Assembly: GCF_005403045.1 (NCBI RefSeq)
Contig: NZ_BJCL01000027.1
Coordinates: 1 to 38,979 of the forward strand
Direction of reading: 5' to 3'
Source: Pseudaquabacterium pictum
Lineage (GTDB): Bacteria > Pseudomonadota > Gammaproteobacteria > Burkholderiales > Burkholderiaceae_C
Length of the DNA stretch: 38,979 nucleotides
The translations under genes and the position numbers were made by a program. Of this stretch, positions 10,108-27,391 are shown in pieces (position 1 is the first letter of the stretch; each line of letters opens with the position of its first letter). Under the pieces are notes generated by a model. The model worked only from the letters and a program-made list of their open reading frames with translations. It was not told where the DNA came from and ran no database searches.

Positions 10108-10866
10108 CTATCCCGCCTGCTTCAGCACCGCCGCCCGCTCCACCCGGCTGCGCTCGCGCGCCTCCAGCAGCGCATGCAGGGTGATCTTGCGCACCTCCAG
10201 CTTGCTCTGCTCGATGTGGCTTCTCAGCAGCAGCTTGGCCGCATCGGGCTTGCGCTGGATGACGGCGCGCAGGATCTTGGCGTGCTCGGCATAGGTGGCA
10301 TGGATGCGGTCGCCGCGGGTGAAATCGAGCCGGCGCACGATGCGGATGCGCTCGGTCACGTCCTGGTGCACCCGGGCCATCTCGCGGTTGCCGGTGGCGG
10401 CCACCAGCTGGGCATGGAACTGCTCGTCCAGCGCGCCCACCGCATGGCCGTCGGCCAGGCGCTGCTCTTCGGGCACCAGCCACACCGCCTTCAGCGCCTG
10501 CAGCTCGGCCGGCTCGTCGGCGCGGTGGGCCAGGCGGTCCAGGCTGGCAGTTTCCAGCACGATGCGCAGGTCGTAGAGCTGGTCGAGCCGGTCGAAGTCG
10601 ATCGGCTTGACGAACCAGCCGGCCTTGCTCTCGACATCCAGGAAGCCCTCGTTGCGCAGGCGGAACAGCGCCTCGCGCACCGGCGTGCGGCTCACGCCCA
10701 GGCGGGCGCCGATGTCGGTCTCGCTGAAGCGGTCGCCCGGCACCCACAGGAAATCATGCAGCTCGGCCTTGATCTGGGCATAGACCTGCTCGGCCAGCGC
10801 GGCGCGGGGCTTGGCGTCGGTGGCAGTGCCCAGGGTGGCGGATCGGTGTGGCATGGTCGCCATCAT
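10108..10866 (-). CDS. GntR/FCD-family regulator, last gene of the biuret/ureide operon
   Basis: This 252-residue regulator has a GntR winged helix (LGVSRTPVREALFRLRNEGFL, about residues 50-80) and a C-terminal FCD domain with the spaced histidines FHAQL, EHAKI and SHIEQ. The first ATG overlaps the dppF stop codon as ATGA, so it is probably translationally coupled. MPHRS four codons later is an alternative start. As the last gene of the 17-gene run it is the obvious candidate to control that operon and itself. The palindromic GTATAC site near the operon start is its candidate operator. The ligand is unknown; a ureide or its breakdown product is a reasonable guess. Confidence 0.85.
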   Translation of the reverse strand: MMATMPHRSATLGTATDAKPRAALAEQVYAQIKAELHDFLWVPGDRFSETDIGARLGVSRTPVREALFRLRNEGFLDVESKAGWFVKPIDFDRLDQLYDLRIVLETASLDRLAHRADEPAELQALKAVWLVPEEQRLADGHAVGALDEQFHAQLVAATGNREMARVHQDVTERIRIVRRLDFTRGDRIHATYAEHAKILRAVIQRKPDAAKLLLRSHIEQSKLEVRKITLHALLEARERSRVERAAVLKQAG

Positions 10867-11822
10867 GCGGCAAAGTGGCAGGCCGCCAGATGCTGGGCGC
10901 TGCCGTGCCAGGCCGGCGCCTCGCGGCCGCAGCGGTCGGTGCCACTGCCGCAGCGGCCATGGAAGCGGCAGGCCGATGCCGGCGGGTCGATCGGGCTGGC
11001 CACCTCGCCCACCAGCTGGATGCGCGGCCCCTGGCCGGGGATGGCCGACACCAGGGCCCGGGTGTAGGGGTGGCGCGGTGCGCGGAACACCTGCTCCGAC
11101 GGCCCCACCTCCACCAGCTTGCCCAGGTACATCACCGCCACCCGGTCGGTGAGCAGGCGCACCACGTTCAGGTCGTGCGAGACGAACAGCACGCTCAAGC
11201 CCAGCTCGCGGCGCAGCCGGTCCAGCAGCTGCAGCACCACCGCCTGCACCGACACATCCAGCGCCGCGGTGGGTTCGTCCAGGATCAGCAGCTGCGGCTG
11301 CACCGCCAGCGCCCGGGCGATGCCCACCCGGGCCTTCTGCCCGCCCGACAGCTGGTGCGGATAGCGCGCCAGCAGCTCGGCCGGCAGGCCCACCTGGGCC
11401 GCCACCTGCTGCACCCGCTGCGCCAGTGCCTCGCCCCCCAGGCCGGCCAGCAGGCGCAGCGGCTCGGCGATGCTGTCGTGCGCGGTGTAGCGCGGGTTCA
11501 GGCTGTCGGTCGGATCCTGGAACACCATCTGGATGGCCGGGCGACGTGCATGGCGGGCAAAGCGTGCGGCGGGGATGGCCGCCAGGTCGTCGCCGTCGAA
11601 GACGATGCGGCCTTCGGTCGGATCGTGCAGCCGCGCCAGCAGGCGCACCAGGGTGCTCTTGCCGCAGCCCGACTCACCGACCAGGCCCAGGCTCTCGCCG
11701 CGGCCGATGACCAGGTTCACATCGTCCACCGCATGCAGCTGCGCGCCGCGCCGGCCGCCCACGGCGCCTTTGACCGGAAAGCGCTTGTGCAGTCGCTCCA
11801 CCTGCAGCAGCGGCTCAGCCAT
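10863..11822 (-). CDS. dppF: Dipeptide/oligopeptide-type ABC transporter ATP-binding protein (DppF-like)
   Basis: The 319-residue ATPase shows Walker A GESGCGKST, signature LSGGQKARVGIARAL and Walker [13 protein letters not shown]. It has the C-terminal oligopeptide/dipeptide extension with clustered cysteines (ACRFHGRCGSGTDRC and a final AACHF). The ATG at 11822 gives MAEPLLQVERLHKRF and overlaps the end of dppD by 8 nt; the longer upstream reading is not homologous. It energises the dppBC permease in the inner membrane. The gene set may carry peptides, but in this operon a ureide or biuret-like compound is more likely. Confidence 0.9.
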   Translation of the reverse strand: MAEPLLQVERLHKRFPVKGAVGGRRGAQLHAVDDVNLVIGRGESLGLVGESGCGKSTLVRLLARLHDPTEGRIVFDGDDLAAIPAARFARHARRPAIQMVFQDPTDSLNPRYTAHDSIAEPLRLLAGLGGEALAQRVQQVAAQVGLPAELLARYPHQLSGGQKARVGIARALAVQPQLLILDEPTAALDVSVQAVVLQLLDRLRRELGLSVLFVSHDLNVVRLLTDRVAVMYLGKLVEVGPSEQVFRAPRHPYTRALVSAIPGQGPRIQLVGEVASPIDPPASACRFHGRCGSGTDRCGREAPAWHGSAQHLAACHFAA

Positions 11823-12825
11823 CGGCCAGCTCCGGTGTGACGGCGTCCAGCGGGTGCCAGCAGGCCACGGCATGGGTGGTGCCGCCATCCAGCGGCGGGC
11901 GCTGGCTGTGGCAGCGGCTGTCGGCGTGGGCGCAGCGGCCGGCAAAGCGGCAGGCGGGCAGGTCGCTGCGGCGCAGGTCGGGCAGTTGGCCGGGTACCGG
12001 TTCCAGGCTCTGGATGCTGCTGTTGGCGCCGGGCGTGCTGCTCATCAGCCGGGCGGTGTAGGGGTGGCGCGGCATGCTGAACAGCGACCGGGTGGGGGCC
12101 GACTCCACCACATGGCCGGCATGCATCACCACGATGCGGTCGCAGTAGTCGGCGGCCAGCGCCAGGTCATGGGTGATGAACAGCGTGGCCATCTGTCGCT
12201 CCCGCGCCAGGCCGGTGATCAGGTCCATCACCGCGGCCTGGGTGGTCACGTCCAGGCCGGTGGTGGGCTCGTCGGCGATCAGCAGGCTCGGCCGGCAGGC
12301 CAGGGCCAGGGCGATCATCACCCGCTGGCACATGCCGCCGCTCAGCTCGAAGGGGTGGGCGCTGGTGCGGCGCTCGGGGTCGGCGATGGCCACATCGCGC
12401 AGGGCCTGCACGCTGCGTTCACGCAGGCTGCGGCCCAGGTCGGGGCTGGTGGCTGCGGCATGGCGGCGCAGCACGTCCTGCAGCTGGTCACCCACGGTGC
12501 GGATCGGGTTCAGCGCGGTGCGCGGGCTCTGGAACACCATGCTGATCTCGCGCCCGCGCAGGCCGGCCAGCGTGGCCTCGTCGGCCTGCAGCAGGTCCAT
12601 GCCGCCGAAGACTGCGGTGCCGGCGGTGACCTGGGCCGCTGCATCGCTGATGCCCAGCAGCGCATAGCTCAGCACGCTCTTGCCCGATCCGCTCTCGCCC
12701 ACCAGGCCGACGATCTCGCCCTTGCGCAGCGTCAGGTCCACGCCTTCCAGCGCCCGCACCGTGCCGCTGCGGGTGCGGAATTCCAGGCTGAAGCCGCGCA
12801 CGTCGAGCAGGGGTGGCTGGCTCAT
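11815..12825 (-). CDS. dppD: Dipeptide/oligopeptide-type ABC transporter ATP-binding protein (DppD-like)
   Basis: The 336-residue ATPase begins MSQPPLLDVRGFSLEFRTRS. It has Walker A GESGSGKS, signature LSGGMCQRVMIALAL and Walker B LLIADEPTTGLD, then the oligopeptide-family C-terminal segment with cysteines in ACRFAGRCAHADSRC and AVACW. The start codon overlaps the dppC stop as ATGA and GAGGA lies upstream inside dppC. It pairs with DppF as the two nucleotide-binding subunits. The cysteine pattern resembles that of Dpp ATPases reported to bind an iron-sulphur cluster; whether this one does is not known. Confidence 0.9.
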   Translation of the reverse strand: MSQPPLLDVRGFSLEFRTRSGTVRALEGVDLTLRKGEIVGLVGESGSGKSVLSYALLGISDAAAQVTAGTAVFGGMDLLQADEATLAGLRGREISMVFQSPRTALNPIRTVGDQLQDVLRRHAAATSPDLGRSLRERSVQALRDVAIADPERRTSAHPFELSGGMCQRVMIALALACRPSLLIADEPTTGLDVTTQAAVMDLITGLARERQMATLFITHDLALAADYCDRIVVMHAGHVVESAPTRSLFSMPRHPYTARLMSSTPGANSSIQSLEPVPGQLPDLRRSDLPACRFAGRCAHADSRCHSQRPPLDGGTTHAVACWHPLDAVTPELADG

Positions 12826-13697
12826 GTGCGTTTCCTCGGGTCGAACACGTCGCGCAACGCATCCCCCAGCAGGTTGAAGGTGAACACCGCCAGCATCAGC
12901 GCCGCACCGGGGAACAGGCTGACCCACCATTCACCGCTGACGATGAACTGCGCGCCTTCGGCCACCAGGATGCCCCACTCGGCCTCGGGCGGGCGCACGC
13001 CCAGGCCGATGAAGCTCAGGCCCGCCGCATTCAGGATGGCCCAGCCCATGTTCAGGCTCAGCTGCACCATGGCCGGCGGCAGGGCGTTGGGGAACAGGTG
13101 GCAGGCCAGGATGCGCCAGTCGCTGTTGCCCGACAGGCGTGCCGCCTCCACCCAACCGGCGTTGCGCCGCACATTGGCCTCGGCCCGCGCCACGCGGATG
13201 TAGAACGGCAGGTTGATGATGGCTGTGGCCAGCACGATGTTGCCCACGGTGTTGCCCAGCGCCGCCACGATGCCCATGGCCAGCACGAACAGCGGAAACG
13301 CCATGATGGTGTCGGACAGCCGGGTGACCAGGCGGTCCCACCAGCCGCCGAAGTAGCCCGCCGCCAGCCCCAGCGGCATGCCGATGGCGAAGGACACCGC
13401 CACCGCGCCCAGCGCCAGGCCCAGGTCGAGCCGGGTGGCCACCACCACGCGCGAGAAGATGTCGCGCCCCAGTGCGTCGGTGCCGAACCAGTGCGCAGCC
13501 GACGGCGGCTGCAGTGCCACCGCGGCGTTGGTCGCCAGCGGGTCGTGCGGCACCAGCGCCGGCCCCACCAGCGCCAGAAGCACGAAGAACACGAACAGCG
13601 CCGCGGCGATGCCGGTGACCGGGTTCTCCGACAGCACATGCCGCAGGTGGCTGCGGGTGGGCGCGGGTGGCGTGGACGGGGCGGGCAGGGCGCTCAT
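12822..13697 (-). CDS. dppC: ABC transporter permease, DppC/OppC type
   Basis: This inner-membrane protein of 291 residues has the OppC N-terminal helix (PVTGIAAALFVFFVLLALVG), the family segment HWFGTDALGRDIFSRV, and about five further membrane helices. The EAA-type coupling loop is seen in EAARLSGNSDWRILACHLFP. It ends FDPRKRT, typical for DppC. The start at 13697 overlaps the dppB stop as ATGA; a longer open frame upstream is only the dppB gene read in another frame. With DppB it forms the channel of the importer. Confidence 0.9.
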   Translation of the reverse strand: MSALPAPSTPPAPTRSHLRHVLSENPVTGIAAALFVFFVLLALVGPALVPHDPLATNAAVALQPPSAAHWFGTDALGRDIFSRVVVATRLDLGLALGAVAVSFAIGMPLGLAAGYFGGWWDRLVTRLSDTIMAFPLFVLAMGIVAALGNTVGNIVLATAIINLPFYIRVARAEANVRRNAGWVEAARLSGNSDWRILACHLFPNALPPAMVQLSLNMGWAILNAAGLSFIGLGVRPPEAEWGILVAEGAQFIVSGEWWVSLFPGAALMLAVFTFNLLGDALRDVFDPRKRT

Positions 13698-14707
13698 GCC
13701 GAGACATCCACCCGCGGGTCGATCAGGCCATACAGCACATCCACCAGCAGGTTCAGCAGCACGAACAGGATGCCCATCGCCAGCACGAAGCCCTGCACCG
13801 GCGCATAGTCGCTGGCGGTCAGCGCGTCGATGGCATAACTGCCCACGCCGGGCCAGCCGAACACCTTCTCGACGATCACGCTGCTGCCCAGCATGAAGCC
13901 GAACACCATGCCCAGCGTGGTGACCACCGGCAGCAGCGCATTGCGCAGCGCGTAGGTGATCAGCACGGTGCTGCGCGTCAAGCCAGAAGCGCGCGCGGTG
14001 CGCACGAAGTCGGCCGACAGCACCGCCAGCATCGATGCGCGTGTCATCCGGGCGATCGGCGCCAGCACGAACAGCGCCATCGTCACCACCGGCAGGATCA
14101 TCTGCCGTAAGCACGCCCACCACAGCGCGCCGTCACCAGCCAGCGCGGCATCCACCAGGTACAGGCCGGTGATGCCTGGTGGCGGCGAGAACATCGGGTC
14201 CAGGCGGCCCAGCGGGCTGGGCGCCCAGCCCAGCAGGAAGTAGAAGACATAGGCCAGCAGCAGCCCGGTGAAGAAGGTGGGCAGCGAGACGCCGGCGGTG
14301 GTCAGCACCCGGCAGAGCTGGTCGATCCAGCTGCCAGGCCGGGTGGCGGCCAGCACGCCCAGCGGCAGCGCCACCGCGCAGGCCAGCACCAGAGCCAGGA
14401 AGACCAGTTCCAGGCTGGCGGGCAGGCGCTGCAGCAATTCCGTCAGCACCGGCTGGCCGGTGCTGATCGACAGGCCCAGGTCGCCCTTGGCCAGCGCACC
14501 CAGGTAGCTGAAGAACTGCTCGACCATCGGCCGGTCCAGCCCCAGCTGGGCGCGCACCTGGGCCACCGCCTCCTGCGTGGCCGCGGCGCCGGCGAAGTAG
14601 GCGGCCGGGTCGCCCGGCAGCGCGCGGGTCAGCACGAAGGTGATCACCACCACCCCGGCCAGGTTGGGCAGCGCGGCCAGCAGGCGGGTGAGGATCAGGC
14701 GCAGCAT
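13694..14707 (-). CDS. dppB: ABC transporter permease, DppB/OppB type
   Basis: The 337-residue inner-membrane protein opens [20 protein letters not shown], the usual OppB/DppB start with ALPGDPAAYF soon after. It has about six membrane helices. The coupling segment is FVRTARASGLTRSTVLITYALRNALLP, and the end is LYGLIDPRVDVSA. The ATG overlaps the last base of the upstream hydrolase stop (TGATG). It belongs with DppC, DppD and DppF here, but its solute-binding protein is encoded 9 kb upstream (23929-25533), after the AtzF gene. Confidence 0.9.
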   Translation of the reverse strand: MLRLILTRLLAALPNLAGVVVITFVLTRALPGDPAAYFAGAAATQEAVAQVRAQLGLDRPMVEQFFSYLGALAKGDLGLSISTGQPVLTELLQRLPASLELVFLALVLACAVALPLGVLAATRPGSWIDQLCRVLTTAGVSLPTFFTGLLLAYVFYFLLGWAPSPLGRLDPMFSPPPGITGLYLVDAALAGDGALWWACLRQMILPVVTMALFVLAPIARMTRASMLAVLSADFVRTARASGLTRSTVLITYALRNALLPVVTTLGMVFGFMLGSSVIVEKVFGWPGVGSYAIDALTASDYAPVQGFVLAMGILFVLLNLLVDVLYGLIDPRVDVSA

Positions 14708-15384
14708 CAGGCGCCGTCCGGCAGCGCGGCCAGCACCGCCGCCAGCGGGGCGGCCCAGCCGACGATGCCGCCTTGTGCCACCACCATCTCGATGGTGGCG
14801 GCCTTGAACGCCGGGAAGTAGCTGGCGGTGGCCTCTTCCACCAGCAGACAGTCGTAGCCGCGGTCGTTGGCCTCGCGCAGCGTGGTCTGCACGCAGACCT
14901 CGGTGGTGACGCCGGCCACCACCAGCTGGGTCACGCCGCGGGCCTGCAGTTCGGCCTGCAGCGGGGTGGCGTAGAACGCGCCCTTGCCGGGCTTGTCGAT
15001 GACGATCTCACCGTCGATCGGCGCCAGTGTGGGGATGATCTGGTTGCCTGGCTCGCCGCGCACCAGCAGCCGCCCGCCAGGGCCCGCATCGCCGATGCGC
15101 AGGCTGGGGTTGCCTCGGGAGCGTTTCGCCGGCGGGCAATCCGACAGGTCGGGCAGGTGGGATTCGCGGGTGTGCACCACCGGCCAGCCCCGGGCGCGCC
15201 AGGCCTGCAACAGCGCCAGCGTGGGGCCGACGGCGGCCTCCAGCAGTGACACGTCGTTGCCCAGGCTCTCGCCAAAGCCGCCGGGCTCGATGAAGTCCCG
15301 CTGCATGTCGATGATCACCAGCGCTGCGCGGCCGGGCTGCAGGTCGAACTGGAACGGGCGGGCGGCGATGGGCGTGGTGCTCAT
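14707..15384 (-). CDS. Isochorismatase-like cysteine hydrolase, paralogue of biuret hydrolase
   Basis: The 225-residue protein is of the isochorismatase-like hydrolase family. The catalytic triad can be placed at Asp26 (VIIDMQRDF), Lys131 (IDKPGKGAF) and Cys164 (TTEVCVQTT), with the cis-peptide VT before TEVC. It is clearly related to the BiuH at 16996-17679 along its length ([13 protein letters not shown]) but diverges in the N-terminal and substrate-facing loops ([21 protein letters not shown]). It probably cleaves a different C-N bond of a ureide. The ATG overlaps the upstream ABC ATPase stop as ATGA. Relatives include ureidoacrylate and N-carbamoylsarcosine hydrolases; the substrate cannot be named from sequence. 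Confidence 0.85.
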
Positions 15385-16985
15385 GCGGCCTCCTTGTGCT
15401 GCGCGGCGGCAGCCACGCTGGCCGGACTGTCGGCCACTGCCACCACCGCATGCCCGCCGGCGTGTCCCCCCATGTGCCGGCCGATGTCGTGCCGGTCAGC
15501 GCCGGCCGCGGCGCAGGCATGCACCAGCCGGCCGCCGCTCATCACCACGATGCGGTCGGCCACATGCAGGAGTTCGTCCAGATCTTCGCTGACCATCAGC
15601 ACCGCGGCGCCACGGTTGCGCGCGGCCACCAGGCGGGCATGCACCTCGGCCACGGCGGTGAAATCGAGCCCGAACACCGGGTTGCTGACCAGCAGCACGT
15701 CGGCGTCGTCGCTCAGCTCACGCGCCAGCACCGCGCGCTGCACGTTGCCGCCCGACAGCGAGCCGATCGGTGCGCCCTCGCCCTGGGTCTTGACGCGGTA
15801 GGTGGCGATCAGCGCCCGCGCCCGCCTGGCCAGTGCGCCTGGCACCCGCAGCCCGGCGTGGGCGAAGGGCGGCTCGTCGAAGCTGCGCAGGCCGATGTTG
15901 TCGGCCACGCTCATGCTGGCCACGCAGGCATTGCGCAGCGGCTCCTCGGGCAGGCCGCGCACCTTCAGGTCGCGGTTCTGGCGCCGGGTGGCGGTGTAGA
16001 TCTGACCATTGACGGTGACCGTGCCGCCGGCGCGCCGGCGCTGGCCGGCCAGGGCCTCCATCAGCTCGCGCTGGCCGTTGCCCGAGACACCGGCCACACC
16101 GACGATCTCGCCGGCATGCACGTCCAGGTCCAGCCCGTCCACCGCCGTCTCGCCGCGGTCACCGTCGACGGTGAAGCCGCGCAGCGCCAGCCGCACCGGC
16201 CCGGGCGGCTGGGCGCTGCGCTGCAGGGTTGCCGCGCCGGTGGCCTCGCCCCGTGCGCTGGCGTCCTCGCCCACCATGCTGGCCGCCATCTCGGCCGGCT
16301 GCGTGCCGGCCACGGCGCGGCTGTCGACCAGCCGGCCGCGGCGCAGCACCGTCACGTCGTCGGCAAAGGCCATCACCTCGCGGAACTTGTGGGTGATCAT
16401 CACCACGCTGCACTGGCCGGCATGGGCGCGGTCGCGCAGCGCGCCCAGCACCTCGTCGGCCTCCTGCGGCGTCAGCACGCTGGTGGGCTCGTCCAGGATC
16501 AGCAGGCGCGGTTTCAGGAACAGCTGCTTCAGGATCTCGAGCTTCTGCTTCTCGCCGGCCGACAGCGCCTGCGGCGTGGCATCCAGATCGAGCTGGAACG
16601 GCGCGGTGGCCATGAAGGCCTGCAGCTCGGCGCGCACCGCTGTCCAGTCGATGACGGCCGGCAGCGCGCCGCGGGCGATCAGCAGGTTCTCGGCCACCGT
16701 CATGCCCGGCACCACGGTGAAGTGCTGGTAGACCATGCCGATGCCCAGTGCCCGTGCCACCGTGGGGGCGTGGATGTCGTGCTCGCGGCCATCGAGCAGC
16801 ACCGCACCGTCGTCGGGCCGCTGGTAGCCGACGATGCACTTCACCAGCGTGCTCTTCCCCGCGCCGTTCTCGCCGAGCAGCGCATGCACCGTGCCGGGCC
16901 GCACATGCAGCGACACGCCGTCCAGCGCGGTGAAGGCGCCGAAGCGCTTGGTGAGGTGGACGGTCTCCAGCGACAGGGCGGTCAT
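15381..16985 (-). CDS. BMP/nucleoside-type ABC transporter ATP-binding protein, two fused ATPase domains
   Basis: The product (534 residues) contains two tandem ABC domains, as in the sugar/nucleoside importers related to RbsA and YufO/NupO. The N-terminal domain is complete: Walker [10 protein letters not shown], signature [15 protein letters not shown], Walker [12 protein letters not shown]. The C-terminal domain has the degenerate P-loop GVSGNGQRE usual in this family and the signature [14 protein letters not shown]. Its partners are the permeases at 18715-20711 and the BMP binding protein at 20743-21879, but biuH and the amidase gene sit between. It starts 10 nt after the biuH stop. Confidence 0.9.
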
Positions 16986-16995
16986 GGGCGGTCCC

Positions 16996-17679
16996 TCACA
17001 AGGCCGAGATGGCTTCGACGATGGCGGCGGCGTTGCTGACCGCGCCGAACACGCCGCCCTGCATCGTCACCATCTTCAGCGCGGCCTGGTGGTTGCCCAG
17101 ATCGGTGGCGCCAGTGGCGTCTTCGACGATCGCGCATTCGAAGCCACGGTCATTGGCCTCGCGCATGGTGGTGTGCACACACACGTCGGTGGTGATGCCG
17201 GTGAGCACCAGGTTGCGGATGCCGCGGGTGTGGAGGATCAATTCGAGATCGGTGGCGCAGAAGCTGCCCTTGCCCGGCTTGTCGATCACCACCTCGCCGG
17301 GCAGCGGCGCCAGCTCGGGGATGATCTGCCAGCCCGGTTCACCCCGCACCAGGATGCGGCCGCAGGGGCCGGCATCACCGATGCCTGCGCCGATGCGCTG
17401 GCTGCGCCAGCGCTTGTTGGCCGGCAGGTCCGACAGGTCGGGCCGGTGGCCTTCGCGGGTGTGGATCACCGGCGCGCCCTTGGCGCGGAAGGCTTCCAGC
17501 AGCCGGCTGATCGGGCCGATCGGCGCGCGGGTCAGCGAGATGTCGTAGCCCATGGTGTCGACATAGCCGCCGACACCGCAGAAGTCGGTCTGCATGTCGA
17601 TGACCACCAGGGCGGTGTTGTCGGCGCGCAGCGCGCCGTCGAACGGCCAGGGGTAAGGGGTGGAGGCGATGTGGGGCAT
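16996..17679 (-). CDS. biuH: Biuret amidohydrolase (isochorismatase-like)
   Basis: The enzyme (227 residues) hydrolyses biuret to allophanate and ammonia. The sequence closely follows what I recall of Rhizobium leguminosarum Biu[89 protein letters not shown]. The catalytic residues fall at Asp28, Lys134 and Cys167, with the same spacing as the reported Asp36, Lys142 and Cys175. The ATG at 17679 lies 5 nt after the amidase stop. The allophanate hydrolase and AtzG/E/H genes in the same operon complete the pathway. The end segment [17 protein letters not shown] is also BiuH-like. Cytoplasmic. Confidence 0.87.
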
Positions 17680-17684
17680 GGCCG

Positions 17685-18698: not shown

Positions 18699-18714
18699 GC
18701 TCGGTCCTTGTCGG

Positions 18715-19644: not shown

Positions 19645-20711
19645 GCGGGCGCTCCTGCGGTGGCCGGCATCGGCCGGCGGATGCTGAACAGCTCACCCAG
19701 CCGGCCGCGCAAGGCTTCGCTGGCCAGGATGAACACGAAGCAGAAGCCCATCAGCACCTGCACGCTGGCATCGGGCAAGCCCATGCGCCGCTGCAGCAGG
19801 CTGCCTGCGGCCAGGAAGCCGCCAAACAGGATGGCCACCGGCACGATGGCCAACGGCTGGTGCCGCGCCACGAAGCTGACCAGGATGCCGGTGTAGCCCA
19901 GGCCGACGATCAGCGAGGCATTGGCCGCCGTGTGCACTGCCGCCACCTCGATGCCACCGGCCAGGCCCGCGCAGGCGCCGCCCAGCGCGCAGGCGGTGAT
20001 GATCAGCCGGGTGGCTGGCAGGCCGACGAGTTGCGCCGCCCGCGGGTTGCCACCCACCACCCGGGTGGCAAAGCCGTGGGTGGTGGCCAGCAGCCACAGC
20101 CCGGCGGCGATGCACAGCGCCACGCCCCACACCAGGCCCCAGTGCACATCCCAGCCGCCCAGGGTGCCGATGCGCAGGCTCTCTTCCAACGGCAGGGTGG
20201 ACGGCTTGTTCAGGCTGGCCGGGTCGCGCAGCGGCCCTTCGACAATGTGCTTGAACAGCGCGATCGCGATGTAGCCCAGCAGCAGGCTGCTGATCGTCTC
20301 GTTGACGCCGCGCCACTGGCGCAGCCAGCCGGCCAGCGCGATCCAGGCCGCGCCGGCAGCGGCCGCGGCCAGCAGCATCAGCCCGGTGCCGGCCGCGCCA
20401 CCAGGCAGTGGCAGGGCCGAGGGCAGGGCGGCACAGGCCAGACCGCCCAGCACCAGCGCGCCCTCGCCCCCGATCACCGTGAGCCCGGCGCGCGCCGGGA
20501 TGGCCACGCAGAGGGCGGTCAGCATCAGCGGCGCGGCGCGTTGCAGCGTGTTCTGCAGCGAGAAGGCATCGCCGAAGGCGCCGAGGAACAGCAGGCGCCA
20601 GGCCTGCACCGGATCCTGCCCGTTGAACCAGACGAACAGCCCGAACAGGCCCAGGCCACCGGCCAGGGCCAGCACTGGCAGGGCCAGGGATTCCAGCGTG
20701 GGATGTTTCAT
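19641..20711 (-). CDS. BMP/nucleoside-type ABC transporter permease (first)
   Basis: The 356-residue inner-membrane protein is of the YufP/NupP branch of the BPD_transp_2 family. It contains GAFGDAFSLQNTLQRAAPLMLTALCVAIPARAGLTVIGGEGALV and NETISSLLLGYIAIALFKHIVEGPLRDP, both typical for this branch. Two in-frame ATGs lie two codons apart. The second (20711, MKHPTLES) is preferred because GAGGAG then lies 9 nt upstream, against 3 nt for the first (20717). It forms the channel with the permease that follows. Confidence 0.88.
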   Translation of the reverse strand: MKHPTLESLALPVLALAGGLGLFGLFVWFNGQDPVQAWRLLFLGAFGDAFSLQNTLQRAAPLMLTALCVAIPARAGLTVIGGEGALVLGGLACAALPSALPLPGGAAGTGLMLLAAAAAGAAWIALAGWLRQWRGVNETISSLLLGYIAIALFKHIVEGPLRDPASLNKPSTLPLEESLRIGTLGGWDVHWGLVWGVALCIAAGLWLLATTHGFATRVVGGNPRAAQLVGLPATRLIITACALGGACAGLAGGIEVAAVHTAANASLIVGLGYTGILVSFVARHQPLAIVPVAILFGGFLAAGSLLQRRMGLPDASVQVLMGFCFVFILASEALRGRLGELFSIRRPMPATAGAPA

Positions 20712-20742
20712 CGGCATGCCCTCCTCGGTGCTGCGGGGTGGG

Positions 20743-21879
20743 TCAGGCTTTTCCGATGACGCCTTCGATCAGGTAGTTCATGCCTTCCAGCTCGATGTCG
20801 GTCTGCTTGAAGGCCTTGCCCTTGGGGACCACCACCTTGCCGGTGTTGTCCTTCAGCTCGCCGGCAAAGATGTCGAAGCTGCCGGCGATCATCTTGGCGC
20901 GGATGTCCTCGGCGTTCTTGCGCGCGCCCTCGGGCACCATCGATCCGTAGGGCGAGCTCTTGACAAAGCCGTCCTTCAGCCCGCCGCGCACGAAGTTGGG
21001 GTGCGGCTTGCCGGTGCGTGCGGCCTCCAGGATGCGGGTGTAGGCGGTCAGCCAGTTCCACTCCGCCCCCGTCAGATAGGCGTTGGGCGCCAGCTTGGCT
21101 TGGCTGGCGTGGTAGCCGCAGACCATCTTGCCGCGTTTGGCCGCCGTCTCGACGATCACCTTGGGGCTGTCCACATGCATGGTGAACACGTCCACGCCCT
21201 GGTCGCTGAGGCTGTTGGTGGCCTCGGCCTCCTTCACCGGCATGCTCCAGTCGCCGGTGAAGATGGCGTTGCAGGTGATCTTGGGGTCGACCGAGCGCGC
21301 GCCCATGGTGAAGGCATTGATGTTGCGCAGCACCTGCGGGATCGGCTTGGCCGCGATGAAGCCGATCTTCTTGCTCTTGCTCATGTGGCCGGCGATCACG
21401 CCGTTCAAGTACTGCGCCTCGTCGATGTAGCCGAAGAAGCTGCCGGTGTTGGCCGGGTGCTTGCCCTGGGTCCACATGCCGCCGCAGTGGGCGAAGCGCA
21501 CCTTCTCGTTCTTGGCCGCCATGGCCAGCATGTGCGGGTCGAAGTAGCCGAAGCTGGTGGGGAACAGCAGGGCGGCGCCGTCCTGGCTGATCATGCCCTG
21601 CATGCTCTTCTGCACGGCCTGGGTCTCGGGCACGTTCTCTTCCTCGACCACCTTCACGCCGGCCAGCTTCTTCAACTGGGCCGCGGCCTCAGCGTGCGCC
21701 TGGTTGTAGCCGAAGTCGTCACGCGGGCCGACGTAGATGATGCCCACGGTGATCGGCGCCTGCGCCCAGGCCTGGCGCAGCGCACCGGGCAGGGCCAGCG
21801 AGGCACCGGCCAGCGCACCGCCGGCCAGCAGGCGGCGGCGTTGCAGGTCGGCCAGCAGGGTCTTGTTGGAATCGGTCAT
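20743..21879 (-). CDS. BMP-family ABC transporter substrate-binding protein, Tat-type signal
   Basis: The 378-residue protein belongs to the basic membrane lipoprotein (BMP/Med) family of type 1 periplasmic binding proteins. It carries an N-terminal export signal with three arginines (LQRRRLLAGG, residues 13-21), then a hydrophobic stretch ending AWAQA, consistent with Tat export; no lipobox is seen. The mature part starts PITVGIIYVGPRDDFGYNQ. Similar proteins bind purine nucleosides, but in ureide gene clusters the ligand is often unknown. It heads the transporter gene group and is followed 31 nt later by the first permease. Confidence 0.88.
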   Translation of the reverse strand: MTDSNKTLLADLQRRRLLAGGALAGASLALPGALRQAWAQAPITVGIIYVGPRDDFGYNQAHAEAAAQLKKLAGVKVVEEENVPETQAVQKSMQGMISQDGAALLFPTSFGYFDPHMLAMAAKNEKVRFAHCGGMWTQGKHPANTGSFFGYIDEAQYLNGVIAGHMSKSKKIGFIAAKPIPQVLRNINAFTMGARSVDPKITCNAIFTGDWSMPVKEAEATNSLSDQGVDVFTMHVDSPKVIVETAAKRGKMVCGYHASQAKLAPNAYLTGAEWNWLTAYTRILEAARTGKPHPNFVRGGLKDGFVKSSPYGSMVPEGARKNAEDIRAKMIAGSFDIFAGELKDNTGKVVVPKGKAFKQTDIELEGMNYLIEGVIGKA

Positions 21880-21938
21880 GGTCTCTCGCTCCTGTGTGAA
21901 TCGGGTGTTGGACGGGTCAAGGGCGGCGGGTCGGCAGC

Positions 21939-22331
21939 TCAGGCGGGGGGATCGATCAGCGACACATGGGCCGCCACCACCTGCCAGCCCGCGGGCATGC
22001 GCACCCAGGTCTGGCTCTGGCGGCCGACCTTGGTGCTGCCCTCGCGGCGGAAGGTGGTCATTGCGGTGGCCATGTCGCGGCCGAAGGTGGTGATGACGGT
22101 GTCGTGCAACTGCCGGGCCAGGCCCACGGCCGGCCGGGCGACGCGGAAGGCGCGGATGGCGGCGATGCCGTGCAGGTTCTCGGCTGCGCCGTAGCGCACG
22201 GTGTGGTCGCTGGGCCAGAACAGGGCATCCAGCTCGTCGACCAGGTTGTTCACCAGTGCGTGTTCGTAACGGGCGAAGACAGCGGTCACTTCCGCATGCA
22301 CCTCGGGCAGGTTGATGTCGGTGTGGCTCAT
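21939..22331 (-). CDS. atzH: AtzH/HpxZ-like protein (DUF3225, SnoaL/NTF2-like fold)
   Basis: The 130-residue protein opens MSHTDINLPEVHAEVTAVFA and contains YEHALVNNLVDELDALFWP and VRYGAAENLHGIAAIRAFR, the DUF3225 pattern of AtzH (cyanuric acid pathway) and HpxZ (oxalurate catabolism). The fold is a small alpha+beta barrel. Its exact role in those pathways is not settled; it is nearly always encoded beside the AtzG/AtzE pair. The ATG overlaps the atzE stop as ATGA. The protein ends with AGWQVVAAHVSLIDPPA. Confidence 0.83.
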   Translation of the reverse strand: MSHTDINLPEVHAEVTAVFARYEHALVNNLVDELDALFWPSDHTVRYGAAENLHGIAAIRAFRVARPAVGLARQLHDTVITTFGRDMATAMTTFRREGSTKVGRQSQTWVRMPAGWQVVAAHVSLIDPPA

Positions 22332-23713
22332 GGAAGCTCCGCAATCGGCGCGCTGCACATGCCCTGCGCTTCCAGCGCAGCGGCCACACGCAGGCACAGG
22401 TCTTCGCGCCAGGGCGCGGCGATGAGTTGCACGCCGATGGGCAGGTGCGGCGCGGCCGGGTTGCAGCCCCACAGCGGCACGGTGGCCACCGGCAGGCCGA
22501 TGCAGCTGATCGGCTGCGTCAGCAGGCCCATGCTGGCGCGGGCCGGCAGGCGCTGGCCGCCGATCTCCAGCCACTCGGTGCCGATGGCCGGCGCGGTGCA
22601 GGGTGTGGCCGGCGCGATCAGGATGTCCACCGTCTGGAAGGCCTTGGCCACCCGGCGGGCGAACCAGTGCCGCACCCGCTGGGCCTGCACCGTCCACGCG
22701 GCCGGAACCAGCGCATTGGCCAGGAAGCGGTCGCGCGTGTGGGGGTCGAAATCCTGCGCGCGGCTGCGCAGGTCGGGCAGGTGCAGCGCGCCGCCCTCGG
22801 CGCAGGTGATCAGGAAGGCGGCGGCGCGGGCGCGCTGCACCTCGGGCAGTTCCACCAGCCGGGTGGTGCCCAGGGCCTCGGCCACGCGGTCGACTGCGCT
22901 CAGCGCCTCGGGGTTGGCCATCTCGCGGAACCAGCCGCCCAGCACGCCGATCCGCAGGCCACCGGCGCCGCGGTCCAGCGTGTCGGCGGTGGGCTCGATG
23001 CTGCGCTGGGCGCAGGCCGGGTCGTCGACGTCGGGGCCTTGCAGCAGGTCGTAGCACAGGGCCAGGTCGGCCACGCTGCGCGCGAACGGACCGAGATGGT
23101 CCAGGCTGGCCACGAAGGGGTAGCTGCCGGTGCGCGGCAGGCGGCCGTAGGTGGGTTTCAGGCCATAGGTGCCGCACAGCGACGCCGGCACGCGGATGCT
23201 GCCGTTGGTGTCGCTGCCCAGCGTCAGCGGCACCTGGCCGGCAGCCACCGCGGCGGCCGATCCGCCCGACGAGCCGCCGCTGATTCGCGCCAGGTCATGC
23301 GGGTTGTGGCAGGCGCCGGCATGGCTGTTCTCGGTGGTGAAGCCGTAGGCGTACTCGTCCATGTTCAGCGCGCCCACCAGCACAGCGCCCTCGGCCTCCA
23401 GGCGGCGCACCAGCACCGCATCGCGCCGCGCTGGCGCGGCCGTGGCCTCGATCTTCGAGCCGGCCAGCGTGGCGATGCCGGCCACGTCGAACAGGTTCTT
23501 CACCGCAAACGGCACACCCGCCAGGCGCATGCGGCTGCGGCGCGGGCTGGCATCGACCAGGTCGGCGCGCTTGAGCGCCCGCTCTTCCAGCACGGCCGTG
23601 AAGGCGTTCACCCGCCCGTCGGTGGCGGCGATGGTGGACAGACTGAGCTGCACCGCGGCGCGTGCGCTCAGCGTGCCGGCGCGCACCGCGGCGGCTGTGG
23701 TCACAGCGGTCAT
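22328..23713 (-). CDS. atzE: AtzE-family amidohydrolase (1-carboxybiuret hydrolase type)
   Basis: The 461-residue enzyme is of the amidase-signature family. The Ser-cisSer-Lys triad can be placed at Lys72 (GVPFAVKNLFDVAG), Ser148 (SGGSSGGS) and Ser172 (GSDTNGSIRVP). In the cyanuric acid pathway AtzE with AtzG deaminates 1-carboxybiuret to 1,3-dicarboxyurea, which yields allophanate. The adjacent atzG and atzH genes make this assignment much firmer than for a random amidase. The start overlaps the atzG stop as ATGA, which suits a fixed-ratio complex. The oxalurate-related HpxX is the alternative identity. Confidence 0.85.
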   Translation of the reverse strand: MTAVTTAAAVRAGTLSARAAVQLSLSTIAATDGRVNAFTAVLEERALKRADLVDASPRRSRMRLAGVPFAVKNLFDVAGIATLAGSKIEATAAPARRDAVLVRRLEAEGAVLVGALNMDEYAYGFTTENSHAGACHNPHDLARISGGSSGGSAAAVAAGQVPLTLGSDTNGSIRVPASLCGTYGLKPTYGRLPRTGSYPFVASLDHLGPFARSVADLALCYDLLQGPDVDDPACAQRSIEPTADTLDRGAGGLRIGVLGGWFREMANPEALSAVDRVAEALGTTRLVELPEVQRARAAAFLITCAEGGALHLPDLRSRAQDFDPHTRDRFLANALVPAAWTVQAQRVRHWFARRVAKAFQTVDILIAPATPCTAPAIGTEWLEIGGQRLPARASMGLLTQPISCIGLPVATVPLWGCNPAAPHLPIGVQLIAAPWREDLCLRVAAALEAQGMCSAPIAELP

Positions 23714-23913
23714 GGTGCGCCCTCGCCCAGGTCGGGGCTGACCGGCTGGAACACGTTGCCCGACTCATCGGCCGGCGTCAGCGGCAGGCCGTTGACCAGC
23801 GCGGCCATGTCGGCCGCCAGCGTGAAGAAGCGGGTCACGCCGGGCCGCTGCTCGGCGGTGATCTTCAGGCCCAGCGTGGCCGCTGCGGCGTCGATGTAGG
23901 CAGTGTGGTCCAT
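23710..23913 (-). CDS. atzG: AtzG-like small subunit (DUF4089)
   Basis: This 67-residue protein matches the size and pattern of AtzG, the small partner that binds and stabilises AtzE in a heterotetramer resembling the GatC-GatA pair. Visible segments are YIDAAAATLGLKIT and GVTRFFTLAADMAALVNGLP, followed by a tail running to PVSPDLGEGAP. It lies 15 nt after the solute-binding-protein stop and overlaps atzE by 4 nt. HpxY in the oxalurate cluster is its equivalent. On its own the gene would be called hypothetical; the neighbours decide it. Confidence 0.82.
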   Translation of the reverse strand: MDHTAYIDAAAATLGLKITAEQRPGVTRFFTLAADMAALVNGLPLTPADESGNVFQPVSPDLGEGAP

Positions 23914-23928
23914 CGGCGGTCGCCTTGG

Positions 23929-25533
23929 TCAGGCCTTGAACAGCTGCCGGTAGTCGGGCTGCAGGTGGAACCAGTACTGGTAGCCCTGCACGTCCTTCTG
24001 CATCGCCACGTCCATGGTGGGCTGCATGATCGGGATGCGCGGCACCTCGTCGTAGGCCAGCTGGATCATCTCCTTCACTGCGCCCTCGTAGATCGGCTTG
24101 CTCTCGGCGAAGCGGGCGTTGGTGATCAGCTTGTCCAGCTTGGGGTTCTGGTAGCCCATGGTGTTGAACACCGCGTTCTGGCCGTGGTAGCACCAGAAGA
24201 AGAAGTACTCCGGATAGTCCAGCCAGCCGCCGAAGCGGTTGATCAGCATCGGCATGTCCTTCTTCAGCAGCGCGGCGCGCCAGGTGGCCCCGGGGATCTT
24301 GTTGATCTGCACCTTGATGCCGATGGTGGCCAGCGCCTCCTGGATCAGCACCGCCATCGGCTCGCCGACGGTAGCGCCGCCCAGGTCGAAGCTGAGCGTG
24401 GTCTCCAGCCCGCCGGCCAGGCCGGCCTCGGCCATCAGCGCCTTGGCCTTGGCCACGTCGGTCTTGTACTGGGTGGGCTGCGGCCAGGCGATGGTCTTGA
24501 CCGGGCCGGCCGCGCCATACAGCTTGTTGGCGCGCTGGTAGATGGCGTTGTCGAACAGCTTGTCGTAAGGCAGCACCCAGGCCACGGCCTGGCGCACCTT
24601 GGGGTTGTCGAACGGCGGCTTGTTGACGTTCATGCCCAGGTAGAACATCGCGTTCTCGATGGGCATCGAGGTCACCTTGACCGCCGCGCCCTCGCGCGCC
24701 AGCTCGCTGAAATCCTTGGGCGGCAGGTCGAAGGTGATGTCGATGTCGCCCTTGAGCAGCAGCGCGCGGCGGTTGCCGGCGTTGGGCACGTCGCGCTGGA
24801 CGATTCGGCGCAGCTTGGGCAGCGGGCCGCACTTCCAGTCGTCATTGCGCACGTAGACGATTTCCTGGCCCGAGCGCCAGCTCTCCACCTTGAAGGCGCC
24901 GCCGCCTGCCACGTTGTTGCGTGTCCAGAGCAGGCCCCAGGGGTCCTGCGGCGTGGCGTTCTTCTTCACCAGCTCGCTGTTGAAGATGCTGGGCACCGGC
25001 ACCGCCAGGTCGGGCATGCTCAGCTTGTCGCGGCGGATGAACTTGACGCGGAAGGTGTGGTCGTCCACCACCTCGAACTGCTCGGGCTTCTCCAGCGATC
25101 CGGCCGCCATCTGGAAGGTGGGAAAGCCGCCCACGGTGACGGCGCGGTCGAAGCTCCACTTCACGTCCTTGGCGGTCACCGGCGTGCCGTCGTGGAACTT
25201 GGCGTTCTTGCGCAGCTTGAAGGTGACCGAGTTGCCATCGGGTGCCATCTGCCAGCTCTCGGCCAGCTCGGGTTCCAGCTTGTCGCGGTCGTAGACGATG
25301 CGGCCGTCGGGCAGCTTCTTCTTGCCGTAGGTCATCAGCCGGTCGTAGCAGACCCAGCTCACGCCATAGCTCGGCCGGTTGGCGCCCACGGTGTGGATGT
25401 CCAGCGAGTTGGGGCCGAACTCGTTGGCCACCACCAGCACGTCCTTGGGGCGGGCCTGGGCGGCGGCGCCCAGCGGCAGGGCGCCCGCCAGCGAGCCGGC
25501 GGCGGTGTGGGACAGGAACTGGCGTCGTTGCAT
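23929..25533 (-). CDS. Dpp/Opp-type ABC transporter substrate-binding protein (family 5), Tat-type signal
   Basis: The 534-residue periplasmic protein is of solute-binding family 5. It starts MQRRQFLSHTAAGSLAGALP, a short signal with a twin-arginine motif (RRQFL) and an AAAQA cleavage region. The typical family segments are LEPELAESWQMAPDGNSVTFKLRKNAKFHDGTPVTAKDVKWSFDR and VRQAVAWVLPYDKLFDNAIY. The ATG at 25533 is chosen because the signal peptide begins there. It is the presumed binding subunit for DppBCDF, although those genes are 9 kb downstream in the same run. Ligand unknown. Confidence 0.9.
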   Translation of the reverse strand: MQRRQFLSHTAAGSLAGALPLGAAAQARPKDVLVVANEFGPNSLDIHTVGANRPSYGVSWVCYDRLMTYGKKKLPDGRIVYDRDKLEPELAESWQMAPDGNSVTFKLRKNAKFHDGTPVTAKDVKWSFDRAVTVGGFPTFQMAAGSLEKPEQFEVVDDHTFRVKFIRRDKLSMPDLAVPVPSIFNSELVKKNATPQDPWGLLWTRNNVAGGGAFKVESWRSGQEIVYVRNDDWKCGPLPKLRRIVQRDVPNAGNRRALLLKGDIDITFDLPPKDFSELAREGAAVKVTSMPIENAMFYLGMNVNKPPFDNPKVRQAVAWVLPYDKLFDNAIYQRANKLYGAAGPVKTIAWPQPTQYKTDVAKAKALMAEAGLAGGLETTLSFDLGGATVGEPMAVLIQEALATIGIKVQINKIPGATWRAALLKKDMPMLINRFGGWLDYPEYFFFWCYHGQNAVFNTMGYQNPKLDKLITNARFAESKPIYEGAVKEMIQLAYDEVPRIPIMQPTMDVAMQKDVQGYQYWFHLQPDYRQLFKA

Positions 25534-25567
25534 CGCGGTGTCTCGGTGTCGTGATGGAAGGGCGGCG

Positions 25568-27391
25568 TCAGGAGGCGGCCAGGTGGGCACGCCAGCCGCC
25601 GGTGTGGCTGATGTCGCGCGCGCCTTCCAGCGCCGCGGGCTCGCACAGGAAGCCATGCACGGCGCTGCCGTCGGCCAGGGTCAGCGTGCCCAGACCCAGC
25701 GGTTGCGGGATCAGTGCCAGGAAGCTGCCGACCTGGTCGACCGGCATGTCCCAGACTTCCAGCGCGATGGCATGGCCGCCGGGGCCGCAGCGCAGCAGAC
25801 CGGGCTTGCGCGGCTGGGTGCCGGGCAATTCATAGAGCCTGTAGAGCGGCGCGGTCTGCGCCGCACCCCGCAGCGTGGCGCCGCGTTCGGTGAGCTGCCA
25901 GTTCAGCGGCAGGCCGCTCAGGTGCGCACCCACGACGGCCAGCGGCAGCGTGCGTCGGCTGGCCGGCCAGGCGGCGGGCGGCGGTGGCGCCGACCAGACC
26001 CGGCCGGTGGCGCCCAGCACCTGGCTGCACTGCGCCTGCCAGCGCTGGCCCAGGCCGGCCAGGGCGGCGTCATGCCCGCCCGGCGCGATGAACGTCACGC
26101 CGAAGGGCAGGCCGCTGGCGGTGGTGCAGGCCGGCAGCGCCAGCGCGCACCAGCCCAGCAGGTTGACGAAGTTGGTGTAATTGCCCAGCAGGGCATTGGC
26201 ACCCACCGGATCGGCGCGCAGGTCGTCGAAGCTGGGGTGGCGCGGCGCGGTGGGCACCAGCAGCACGTCCACCTGGGCCCACAGGTGGACAGCCTGGGCC
26301 TGGTGGTGGCGCAGCGTGTACTGGGCGCGGAAGGTGTCGGCCGCGCTGAAGCCGCGCGCCGCACCGATCACCGTGGCCACCGTGGGGTCCAGTGCGTCGG
26401 GTGTCTCGTCGAGCAGCCGCTGCACCACCGCATAGCGCTCGGCCACCCAGGGCCCGCTGTACAGCAGCCGCGCCACCTGGTGCAGCGGCTCGACGTCGAG
26501 TTCGACCACATCGGCGCCCAGCGCGCGCAGCTGCTGCAGGGCCAAGGCCCAGGCCGCCGGGTAGCCCTGGTCGGCATCCAGCACCGGCGCGCGCGGCACG
26601 CCCACCCGCAGCCGCCCCGGCAGGGCGGCCGGGCCGGGGCGGAAATCGCTGTAGTCGTCGGCGGCATCGGGGCCTTCGATCTGCGCCAGCACGGTGGCCG
26701 CGTCGTCGACCGTCAGCGCGAACACCGACACGCAGTCCAGGCTGCGGCAGGCTGGCAGCACGCCGGCGGTGCTGACCCGCCCTGGCGTGGGCTTCAGCCC
26801 TACCAGGTGGTTGAAGCCGGCCGGCACCCGGCCCGAGCCGGCGGTGTCGGTGCCCAGGGCGAAGGCCACGTCACCCCGCGCCACCGCCACCGCCGACCCC
26901 GAGCTGGAGCCGCCGCTGACGCGATCGGCCGCCCAGGTGGAGGCCGGCGCGCCGTAGGGCGAGCGGGTGCCCACCAGGCCGGTGGCGAACTGGTCGAGGT
27001 TGGTCTTGCCCAGCAGCACCGCACCGGCATCGAGCAGCTTCTGCACCACGGTGGCGCTGGCTTCGGCCGGGCGCGCCCAGGCGGGGCAGGCGGCGGTGGT
27101 GTCCAGGCCGGCGACGTCGATGTTGTCCTTCACCGCGAAGGGCACGCCGAACAGCGGGAACCTGGCCAGCAGCGCTGCACGGTCGGGGGTGGCGGCGGCC
27201 AGGGCGTCCAGTTCCTGCAGGCGGGCGTCCAGCATCGCCGGGCTGCAGCGGAGGATCCAGGCATGCGGCGCCGTGTCCGGGCCGTGGATGCGCGCCAGCC
27301 GGGCCTGCAACAGCGGCCGCCAGGCCGCGCCATCGCGCACGGCCTGCTGCCAATCGGCGATGGTGAGGAGCTGGGATTCCGCAGGCTGCAT
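25568..27391 (-). CDS. atzF: Allophanate hydrolase
   Basis: The enzyme (607 residues) hydrolyses allophanate to ammonia and CO2. It has an N-terminal amidase-signature domain with Lys88 (GVPFAVKDNIDVAG), Ser162 (SGGSSSGS) and Ser186 (GTDTAGSGRVP). These sit exactly three residues before the Lys91/Ser165/Ser189 triad I recall for Pseudomonas sp. ADP AtzF, whose length (605) is also close. The C-terminal allophanate hydrolase domain follows, with LPLAVVGAHLSGLPLNWQLT and LYELPGTQPRKPGLLR. The ATG at 27391 (MQPAESQLL) fits this length; an upstream ATG at about 27427 would overlap the candidate operator. It is the first gene of the biuret/ureide operon. Confidence 0.92.
   Translation of the reverse strand: MQPAESQLLTIADWQQAVRDGAAWRPLLQARLARIHGPDTAPHAWILRCSPAMLDARLQELDALAAATPDRAALLARFPLFGVPFAVKDNIDVAGLDTTAACPAWARPAEASATVVQKLLDAGAVLLGKTNLDQFATGLVGTRSPYGAPASTWAADRVSGGSSSGSAVAVARGDVAFALGTDTAGSGRVPAGFNHLVGLKPTPGRVSTAGVLPACRSLDCVSVFALTVDDAATVLAQIEGPDAADDYSDFRPGPAALPGRLRVGVPRAPVLDADQGYPAAWALALQQLRALGADVVELDVEPLHQVARLLYSGPWVAERYAVVQRLLDETPDALDPTVATVIGAARGFSAADTFRAQYTLRHHQAQAVHLWAQVDVLLVPTAPRHPSFDDLRADPVGANALLGNYTNFVNLLGWCALALPACTTASGLPFGVTFIAPGGHDAALAGLGQRWQAQCSQVLGATGRVWSAPPPPAAWPASRRTLPLAVVGAHLSGLPLNWQLTERGATLRGAAQTAPLYRLYELPGTQPRKPGLLRCGPGGHAIALEVWDMPVDQVGSFLALIPQPLGLGTLTLADGSAVHGFLCEPAALEGARDISHTGGWRAHLAAS

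Follow-up and report, generated by a model that had tools for sequence, protein, structure and literature searches.

A seventeen-gene operon of Pseudaquabacterium pictum, probably for scavenging nitrogen from triuret and biuret

Which nitrogen compound would a bacterium take up and degrade with a gene run that combines AtzF, BiuH, AtzG-AtzE-AtzH, a formamidase, a second hydrolase and two importers? We addressed this question in the window, by which we mean the whole stretch of 38,979 nucleotides (nt) that was analysed (contig NZ_BJCL01000027.1 of Pseudaquabacterium pictum GCF_005403045.1, a genome of 6.14 Mb in 64 contigs). There, 17 minus-strand genes run from the start of atzF at 27391 to the stop of a GntR-FCD gene at 10108. 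A sequence-only reading had proposed that they import and break down a biuret-like nitrogen source with two importers and their own regulator, and that the substrate range may be wider than biuret. Our analysis supports both proposals and points to triuret, via the triuret hydrolase TrtA, as the extra substrate; the genes probably form a nitrogen-scavenging operon for triuret and biuret, which is a variant of known systems. These are small nitrogen-rich compounds, found as impurities of urea fertiliser. The enzymes were identified by sequence, residues and context, and the reactions given for them are those published for their families.

Predicted triuret and biuret hydrolases in one gene run

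The gene at 14707-15384 encodes a second isochorismatase-type hydrolase, which the sequence-only reading had left as a generic enzyme and which is, judged by sequence, the triuret hydrolase TrtA. Its best match among solved structures is 6xix, with 319.5 bits versus 219 for the best BiuH, and 6XIX is TrtA (PMC7948467). The protein is 68% identical to TrtA and misses the BiuH cut-off (258.6 bits versus 370). All 15 tested TrtA residues are identical, including the triad D24/K129/C162 and Q202, and they comprise F35, N41, A134, E160, Y187 and I205, six positions picked in PMC7948467 because TrtA and BiuH differ there; the residues tested in BiuH come from the same paper. By the same kind of evidence the product of 16996-17679 is the biuret hydrolase BiuH, since it is 75% identical to Rhizobium leguminosarum BiuH over the aligned part and keeps 11 of 11 tested residues (D36, F41, Y47, Y53, K142, K145, S147, D173, C175, Q215 and V218). 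The positions of Y47, S147 and C175 were set by the alignment. Apart from the generic second hydrolase, the earlier gene identities were right overall, and the formamidase meets its NCBI model.

The tight same-strand spacing described earlier was borne out. Among the 16 junctions, seven are 4-nt overlaps, further overlaps measure 1 and 8 nt and the widest gap is 59 nt. Every one of the 17 genes has a Pfam or NCBIfam match, dppC only to sub-cut-off NCBIfam models. Because of this close spacing and of the sigma-54/GTATAC site upstream of atzF, we infer that the operon is read as a single transcript. A simple terminator scan of the region on both strands gave 7 matches, against a shuffle mean of 4.5 (standard deviation 2.2), and a sigma-70 promoter scan gave 1, against a shuffle mean of 0.7; the window yielded no Rfam or tRNA match. 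The features are as follows.

27427..27442, minus strand: putative sigma-54 (-24/-12) promoter, TGGCACGCCAAATGCA, 11 of 12 consensus letters
27408..27413, no strand: GTATAC palindrome, probable GntR-FCD operator (predicted), the single GTATAC in the window
25568..27391, minus strand: atzF, allophanate hydrolase, 607 amino acids (aa); TIGR02713 743.1 bits (cut-off 511), Amidase and AH_C domains
23929..25533, minus strand: sbp5, solute-binding protein of the Dpp-type importer; SBP_bac_5
23710..23913, minus strand: atzG, carboxybiuret hydrolase small subunit; PF13318 AtzG-like 58.3 bits (cut-off 24)
22328..23713, minus strand: atzE, carboxybiuret hydrolase amidase subunit; NF006631 711.2 bits (cut-off 461)
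21939..22331, minus strand: atzH, probable 1,3-dicarboxyurea decarboxylase; PF11533 AtzH-like, NF033625 HpxZ 200.5 bits (cut-off 135)
20743..21879, minus strand: BMP-family solute-binding protein of the second importer; Bmp PF02608, nearest solved structure AtzT 6pi5
19641..20717, minus strand: BMP importer permease; BPD_transp_2
18715..19644, minus strand: BMP importer permease; BPD_transp_2
17685..18698, minus strand: formamidase, AmiF-like; NF009803 550.9 bits (cut-off 406), nearest solved structure 5g3o, a formamidase
16996..17679, minus strand: biuH, biuret hydrolase; NF050097 416.7 bits (cut-off 370)
15381..16985, minus strand: double ATPase of the BMP importer; two ABC_tran stretches
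14707..15384, minus strand: trtA, triuret hydrolase by nearest solved structure (6xix) and residue test
13694..14707, minus strand: dppB-type permease; BPD_transp_1
12822..13697, minus strand: dppC-type permease; NCBIfam Dpp/Nik/Opp C models, all sub-cut-off
11815..12825, minus strand: dppD-type ATPase; ABC_tran and oligo_HPY
10863..11822, minus strand: dppF-type ATPase; ABC_tran and oligo_HPY
10108..10866, minus strand: GntR-FCD transcriptional regulator; GntR and FCD domains

AtzG-AtzE-AtzH and the fate of carboxybiuret

The atzG and atzE genes are adjacent with a 4-nt overlap and both products lie above their family cut-offs; AtzE is 58-60% identical to that of Pseudomonas sp. ADP. AtzH keeps 9 of 9 pocket residues published in PMC6219798 (Y22, R46, R63, R66, R73, F94, R96, Q106 and Q108). 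The HpxZ model NF033625 also names AtzH of pADP-1, hence it does not separate AtzH from HpxZ. We found no match to the AtzD family PF09663 in the source genome (99.97% complete), in a run that matched no control genome; the same search detects the control on pRL10 of R. leguminosarum. Cyanuric acid is thus not indicated as a substrate.

AtzG-AtzE-AtzH have a substrate despite the lack of an AtzD match, because TrtA makes 1-carboxybiuret, and AtzEG acts on this TrtA product (PMC7948467). Triuret is likely the source of the carboxybiuret that the three proteins need. The enzymatic link from TrtA to AtzEG is already published; the pairing of the genes is new here. With the reactions as published (PMC7948467, PMC6219798), TrtA would convert triuret to 1-carboxybiuret and ammonia, AtzG-AtzE would then yield 1,3-dicarboxyurea and a second ammonia, AtzH would decarboxylate dicarboxyurea to allophanate, and AtzF would release the last two ammonia, which makes four per triuret in all. 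Part of the carboxybiuret would lose CO2 spontaneously to give biuret, and BiuH would turn this, or imported biuret, into allophanate.

How other TrtA loci deal with carboxybiuret was examined in the best 80 of at least 545 confirmed BiuH loci, a survey that favours close relatives of the query and in which many loci are cut by contig ends. TrtA is present in 58 of them, together with AtzE and AtzH in 21, with AtzH alone in 15, with AtzE alone in 1, with a small cupin in 9 and with none of these in 12. No cupin locus (0 of 10) has AtzE or AtzH; for the nine with TrtA, the probability of this by chance is 3e-5, kinship ignored. The AtzH proteins themselves fall into two kinds. Beside AtzE, Arg66 is kept in 43 of 45 rows and Arg96 likewise in 43 of 45 (pADP-1 and Klebsiella included), whereas in the rows without AtzE in view Arg66 is kept in 1 of 25 and Arg96 in 14 of 25, some rows being repeats of one genome. 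The window AtzH, with Arg66 kept, is of the kind found beside AtzE.

Since Arg66 is lost in 24 of 25 rows, the lone AtzH-like protein appears suited to a substrate with one carboxylate, which would be carboxybiuret. It may be the published TrtB, and it is favoured over the cupin in this respect because no cupin occurs in the 35 loci from the order Burkholderiales and because a Herbaspirillum locus (L128) carries a lone AtzH-like protein. The small cupin is itself a candidate carboxybiuret decarboxylase. On pRL10, a cupin of 117 aa encoded after trtA (L074, 14937-15290) is annotated as 'allophanate hydrolase'. We tentatively suggest, jointly with the origin of AtzG-AtzE-AtzH discussed below, that TrtA operons hold one of three exchangeable answers to the instability of carboxybiuret, namely AtzG-AtzE-AtzH, the lone AtzH-like protein or the small cupin.

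Two importers and a putative shared control region

AtzT, the nearest solved structure to the BMP-family solute-binding protein, binds guanine (PMC6834077). The window protein keeps the AtzT pocket residues Tyr45, Ser97, Phe98, Asn169 and Trp194. We compared 110 rows at least 48% identical to it with 8 other BMP rows, and observed that Glu165 of AtzT is replaced by Gln in 98 of the 110 versus 2 of the 8, Thr139 by Gln in 87 versus 0, and Asn218 by His in all 110 versus 4. In these alignments, Gln165 and Gln139 best mark the group of the window protein, His218 does so partly and Asp220 not at all. The ligand would be a planar molecule, not guanine, with triuret or biuret as the simplest candidates. 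The BMP protein encoded beside atzD on pADP-1 is 37% identical to that of the window and differs in its pocket residues. NCBIfam names of the 'B6 transporter' type for this importer were dropped, every score being below its cut-off.

Sbp5 and DppBCDF, which are apart in the window, look like one importer because in L163, L164 and L165 dppBCDF directly follow sbp5. This Dpp-type importer would probably also bring in triuret, biuret or a related ureide. A distant BMP importer set (24-42% identity) lies beside L045, L187, L191 and L200-L202; in L200-L202 it stands together with biuH and trtA, the usual BMP set being out of view.

Upstream regions were scored against the sigma-54 (-24/-12) consensus, with a threshold of at least 10 of 12 letters. 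In a first set of 140 upstream regions of the first genes of related operons, 89 carry the motif, versus 3 when the reverse complement is scored (shuffled sequences average 1.45, with a maximum of 5); in a second set of 97 regions from AtzE loci, which partly overlaps the first, 46 carry it, versus 6 (shuffle mean 1.4). Over both sets, the motif precedes bmp in 79 of 105 cases, atzF in 49 of 97 and sbp5 in 6 of 11, when these are first genes. GTATAC is found in 40 of the 140 and 26 of the 97 regions, against shuffle means of 1.2 and 0.95, and in 49 of 65 pairs it starts 17 or 25-30 nt past the start of the sigma-54 motif. This spacing would place the palindrome at or near the transcription start point, and the GntR-FCD protein of the operon probably has its operator there. 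Both sites precede the atz operon and also the bmp operon in L106 and L141; the two gene blocks were therefore probably co-regulated while still separate.

Under nitrogen limitation, RNA polymerase with sigma-54 would start upstream of atzF, with the GntR protein sitting on GTATAC near the start point until a compound of the pathway releases it. Uptake of triuret, biuret or a related ureide would fall to the BMP importer and probably also to the Dpp-type one. The atz operon of pADP-1 is reported to be sigma-54-dependent (PMC6834077). We found no publication on the control of biuH/trtA operons by title or abstract opening, in a search whose coverage leaves most subscription journals outside.

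Two gene blocks, their relatives and the competing explanations

The operon consists of two blocks. Block B (bmp-perm-perm-formamidase-biuH-ATPase-trtA) is a widespread core, whereas block A (atzF-sbp5-atzGEH-dppBCDF-gntR) also stands alone; in the window, block B is nested in block A, between atzH and dppB. The best 80 BiuH loci hold a BMP protein in 71 cases, AtzF and AtzH in 38 each, a formamidase in 27, AtzE in 24, a cupin in 10, Dpp genes in 7 and AtzD in 6. Among the recognised genes, the one just before biuH is the second permease or the formamidase at 72 of the 80 loci, and it is the formamidase at all 27 loci that have one. The closest named BiuH matches, among those listed, include loci of Rubrivivax, Aquabacterium, Leptothrix and Ideonella. 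Block A without the bmp-trtA block is found in L229, L230 and L249, in the order atzF-sbp5-(atzG)-atzE-atzH-dppB-dppC-dppD-dppF-gntR (atzG was not picked up in L229 and L230), and L236, at a contig end, has the order of block A without gntR. The two blocks lie side by side in L079 and L113.

The gene-neighbourhood search proposed by the sequence-only reading did find the same set elsewhere. In a set of 216 loci, some of which are truncated at contig ends, the full 17-gene order occurs in two (L085 and L161) and the same order minus the formamidase in two more (L056 and L133). Since the order recurs, the arrangement is not due to chance. The combination had been called unusual; this does not hold for the core of BMP importer, formamidase, BiuH and TrtA, and it does for the rarer joining of this core with the Dpp-type importer and AtzG-AtzE-AtzH (4 of 216). 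The loci overlap between collections and are related, and the counts are not independent.

Published systems contain most of the parts. The TrtA-BiuH-AtzF pathway of Herbaspirillum sp. BH-1 and R. leguminosarum (PMC7948467) has these three enzymes and the published specificity residues in common with the window, which adds AtzG-AtzE-AtzH in the same gene run, the Dpp-type importer and the nested order. On pRL10 (CP049733, strain A1), the 22.7 kb that were viewed show the same order of bmp, two permeases, formamidase, biuH, ATPase and trtA, but with atzD between biuH and the ATPase and with the small cupin after trtA; no AtzG-AtzE-AtzH and no full Dpp set were seen in this stretch, and its GntR gene is divergently placed, the product being 26% identical to that of the window. 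The joint presence of biuH and atzD on pRL10 has been described (PMC5806882). In clusters of beta-proteobacteria with atzF, an ABC transporter and atzGEH (PMC6219798), atzF lies upstream of atzGEH, as in the window; roughly half of the clusters have the transporter between the two, and further transporters and amidases follow downstream. The section of that paper on AtzH homologs mentions neither TrtA nor BiuH for these clusters and assigns them no specific substrate. Contigs of nitrifiers that carry biuH, trtA, trtB, atzF, bmpA-nupABC and gntR (PMC12625717) share TrtA, BiuH, AtzF, the BMP importer and GntR with the window; TrtB is named there (absent in comammox) and atzH appears in the abstract, while AtzG-AtzE and Dpp genes are not named in the available part. 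PMC13209695, as far as available, concerns other amidases.

We therefore considered whether the blocks could be two nitrogen systems on one transcript, block B serving triuret and biuret with the BMP importer, and block A serving another ureide with the Dpp-type importer and ending in allophanate. Two unlike importers suggest two ligands, and the genomes of L229, L230 and L249, which have block A without block B, gave no BiuH/TrtA match; two of them have an AtzD-family match and one has none. Several other observations likewise weigh against a single triuret and biuret system. If carboxybiuret decarboxylates by itself, for which a half-life of about 20 min has been published (PMC7948467), no enzymes beyond TrtA, BiuH and AtzF would be needed for triuret. 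In a survey of 250 genomes of the source's family, AtzE also occurs in 10 of the 12 AtzD-family genomes. We also looked at 18 genomes of the order in which no TrtA/BiuH lies within about 9 kb of AtzE. The AtzD family is matched in 11 of them (in one by just a short fragment, and the family may also hold barbiturases), and 7 have neither an AtzD-family nor a BiuH/TrtA match, which implies another carboxybiuret source or another substrate for AtzG-AtzE-AtzH in these seven; block A can serve without a triuret hydrolase. As to control, the sigma-54 motif is rare where atzG (1 of 19) or gntR (0 of 5) is the first gene, and of the 48 loci that have a similar GntR, only 27 show GTATAC. Asp in place of AtzT Asn220, found in all 110 close BMP rows, is also present in 7 of the 8 others and was dropped as a mark of triuret-linked BMP proteins.

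Against two separate systems stands the co-occurrence of the blocks. In the family survey, sbp5 was found in 13 genomes, AtzE in 61 and BiuH/TrtA in 77; AtzE and BiuH/TrtA occur together in 51, AtzE alone in 10, BiuH/TrtA alone in 26 and neither in 163. Of these 51 genomes, 44 have AtzE within 25 kb of BiuH/TrtA and 7 have the two on separate contigs; BiuH/TrtA is also present in 12 of the 13 sbp5 genomes, the exception being an 83%-complete genome. Both associations are far above expectation, also when the genes are not adjacent (Fisher p = 1e-23 for AtzE and 4e-6 for sbp5, kinship ignored), and the TrtA product is the published AtzEG substrate (PMC7948467). We thus regard two separate systems as the less likely reading and prefer one operon for triuret and biuret.

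Operon types also vary among close relatives. L172 and L173, from two genomes of the same genus, have another type of triuret operon, with the lone AtzH-like protein and without AtzE or Dpp genes, and a third genome of the genus gave no BiuH/TrtA match, which suggests that the operon type is exchanged within the genus. In an Enterobacter IncR plasmid (L075, NZ_CP058178.1, 4647-16388), atzF-bmp-perm-perm-formamidase-biuH-ATPase-trtA-gntR is flanked by IS1 transposase genes. Matches to the BiuH query (E 1e-30) were found in 293 plasmid records, 133 of them from Rhizobium and 78 from Escherichia; 177 are at 60-80% identity, and the 116 below 60% are perhaps TrtA or other kin.

It is improbable that the operon serves oxalurate or allantoin catabolism, AtzG-AtzE-AtzH being really HpxXYZ. 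The window AtzH does pass the HpxZ cut-off (200.5 versus 135 bits), and Klebsiella hpxXYZ has the same three-gene order, but we know of no role for AtzF, BiuH or TrtA in oxalurate breakdown. Two AtzE trees place the window protein among AtzE rows of its own family, of which many are TrtA-linked, and away from the single HpxY row. This HpxY row itself falls among other TrtA-linked AtzE rows and the deep forks are weak; the trees thus fail to tell the two functions apart.

Even less probable is a cyanuric acid (s-triazine) mineralisation operon like atzDGEHF of pADP-1, with which the window has AtzG-AtzE-AtzH, AtzF, the BMP importer and the sigma-54 promoter type in common (PMC6834077). The window has TrtA, which yields the same product, in place of AtzD, for which the genome gave no match in a search with a working positive control, and GntR in place of the LysR-type AtzR. 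The importer subunits are 32-38% identical to those of pADP-1, and the BMP protein diverges in the pocket as described. Finally, it is hardly credible that the operon serves to scavenge formamide or amides, with the isochorismatase-type hydrolases in an accessory role: a formamidase above its NCBI cut-off is present, but the gene is optional, being found in 27 of the best 80 BiuH loci and missing from L056 and L133, where the order of the other 16 genes is kept.

The kinship with pADP-1 was examined in a broader AtzE tree, made by a quick method with a midpoint root from 101 of 102 rows (one short row was dropped), which were drawn mostly regardless of BiuH (L158 came from the BiuH scan). AtzE of pADP-1 pairs with a chromosomal atzD-atzE-atzH locus of the source's family, G472 (support 91 in the Shimodaira-Hasegawa-like approximate likelihood ratio test, SH-aLRT), inside a clade of 27 rows (support 100), of which 16 are TrtA- or BiuH-linked and 9 have neither in view. 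An earlier claim, from a first tree of loci chosen mainly by BiuH, that this AtzE is nested among TrtA-linked rows only, was weakened by the broader tree. The placement beside G472, in a quick, midpoint-rooted tree of mixed contexts, supports a possible late recruitment of AtzG-AtzE-AtzH into cyanuric acid breakdown. It is possible, and we propose it with caution, that these proteins were originally a carboxybiuret branch of triuret catabolism in this bacterial group and that the pADP-1 operon was drawn from such a system, atzD replacing trtA.

Around the operon, an SNF2-type helicase gene (27510-31775, minus strand) lies on the same strand, 118 nt upstream of atzF. A large plus-strand frame that overlies it (26967-31793) matches no family and is regarded as a shadow frame. 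The downstream neighbour is an oxidoreductase gene on the opposite strand. Farther away, a second GntR-FCD gene (224-895, minus strand) is divergent from a cluster for methylmalonyl-CoA mutase, MeaB and propionyl-CoA carboxylase (983-8888, plus strand).

Set beside the work of Esquirol et al., the usual partner of AtzG-AtzE-AtzH in the source's family appears to be TrtA/BiuH, and the natural source of carboxybiuret for these proteins becomes directly testable, as does the conserved sigma-54/GTATAC control code. The operon also bears on how the genes of the atrazine plasmid pADP-1 were assembled.

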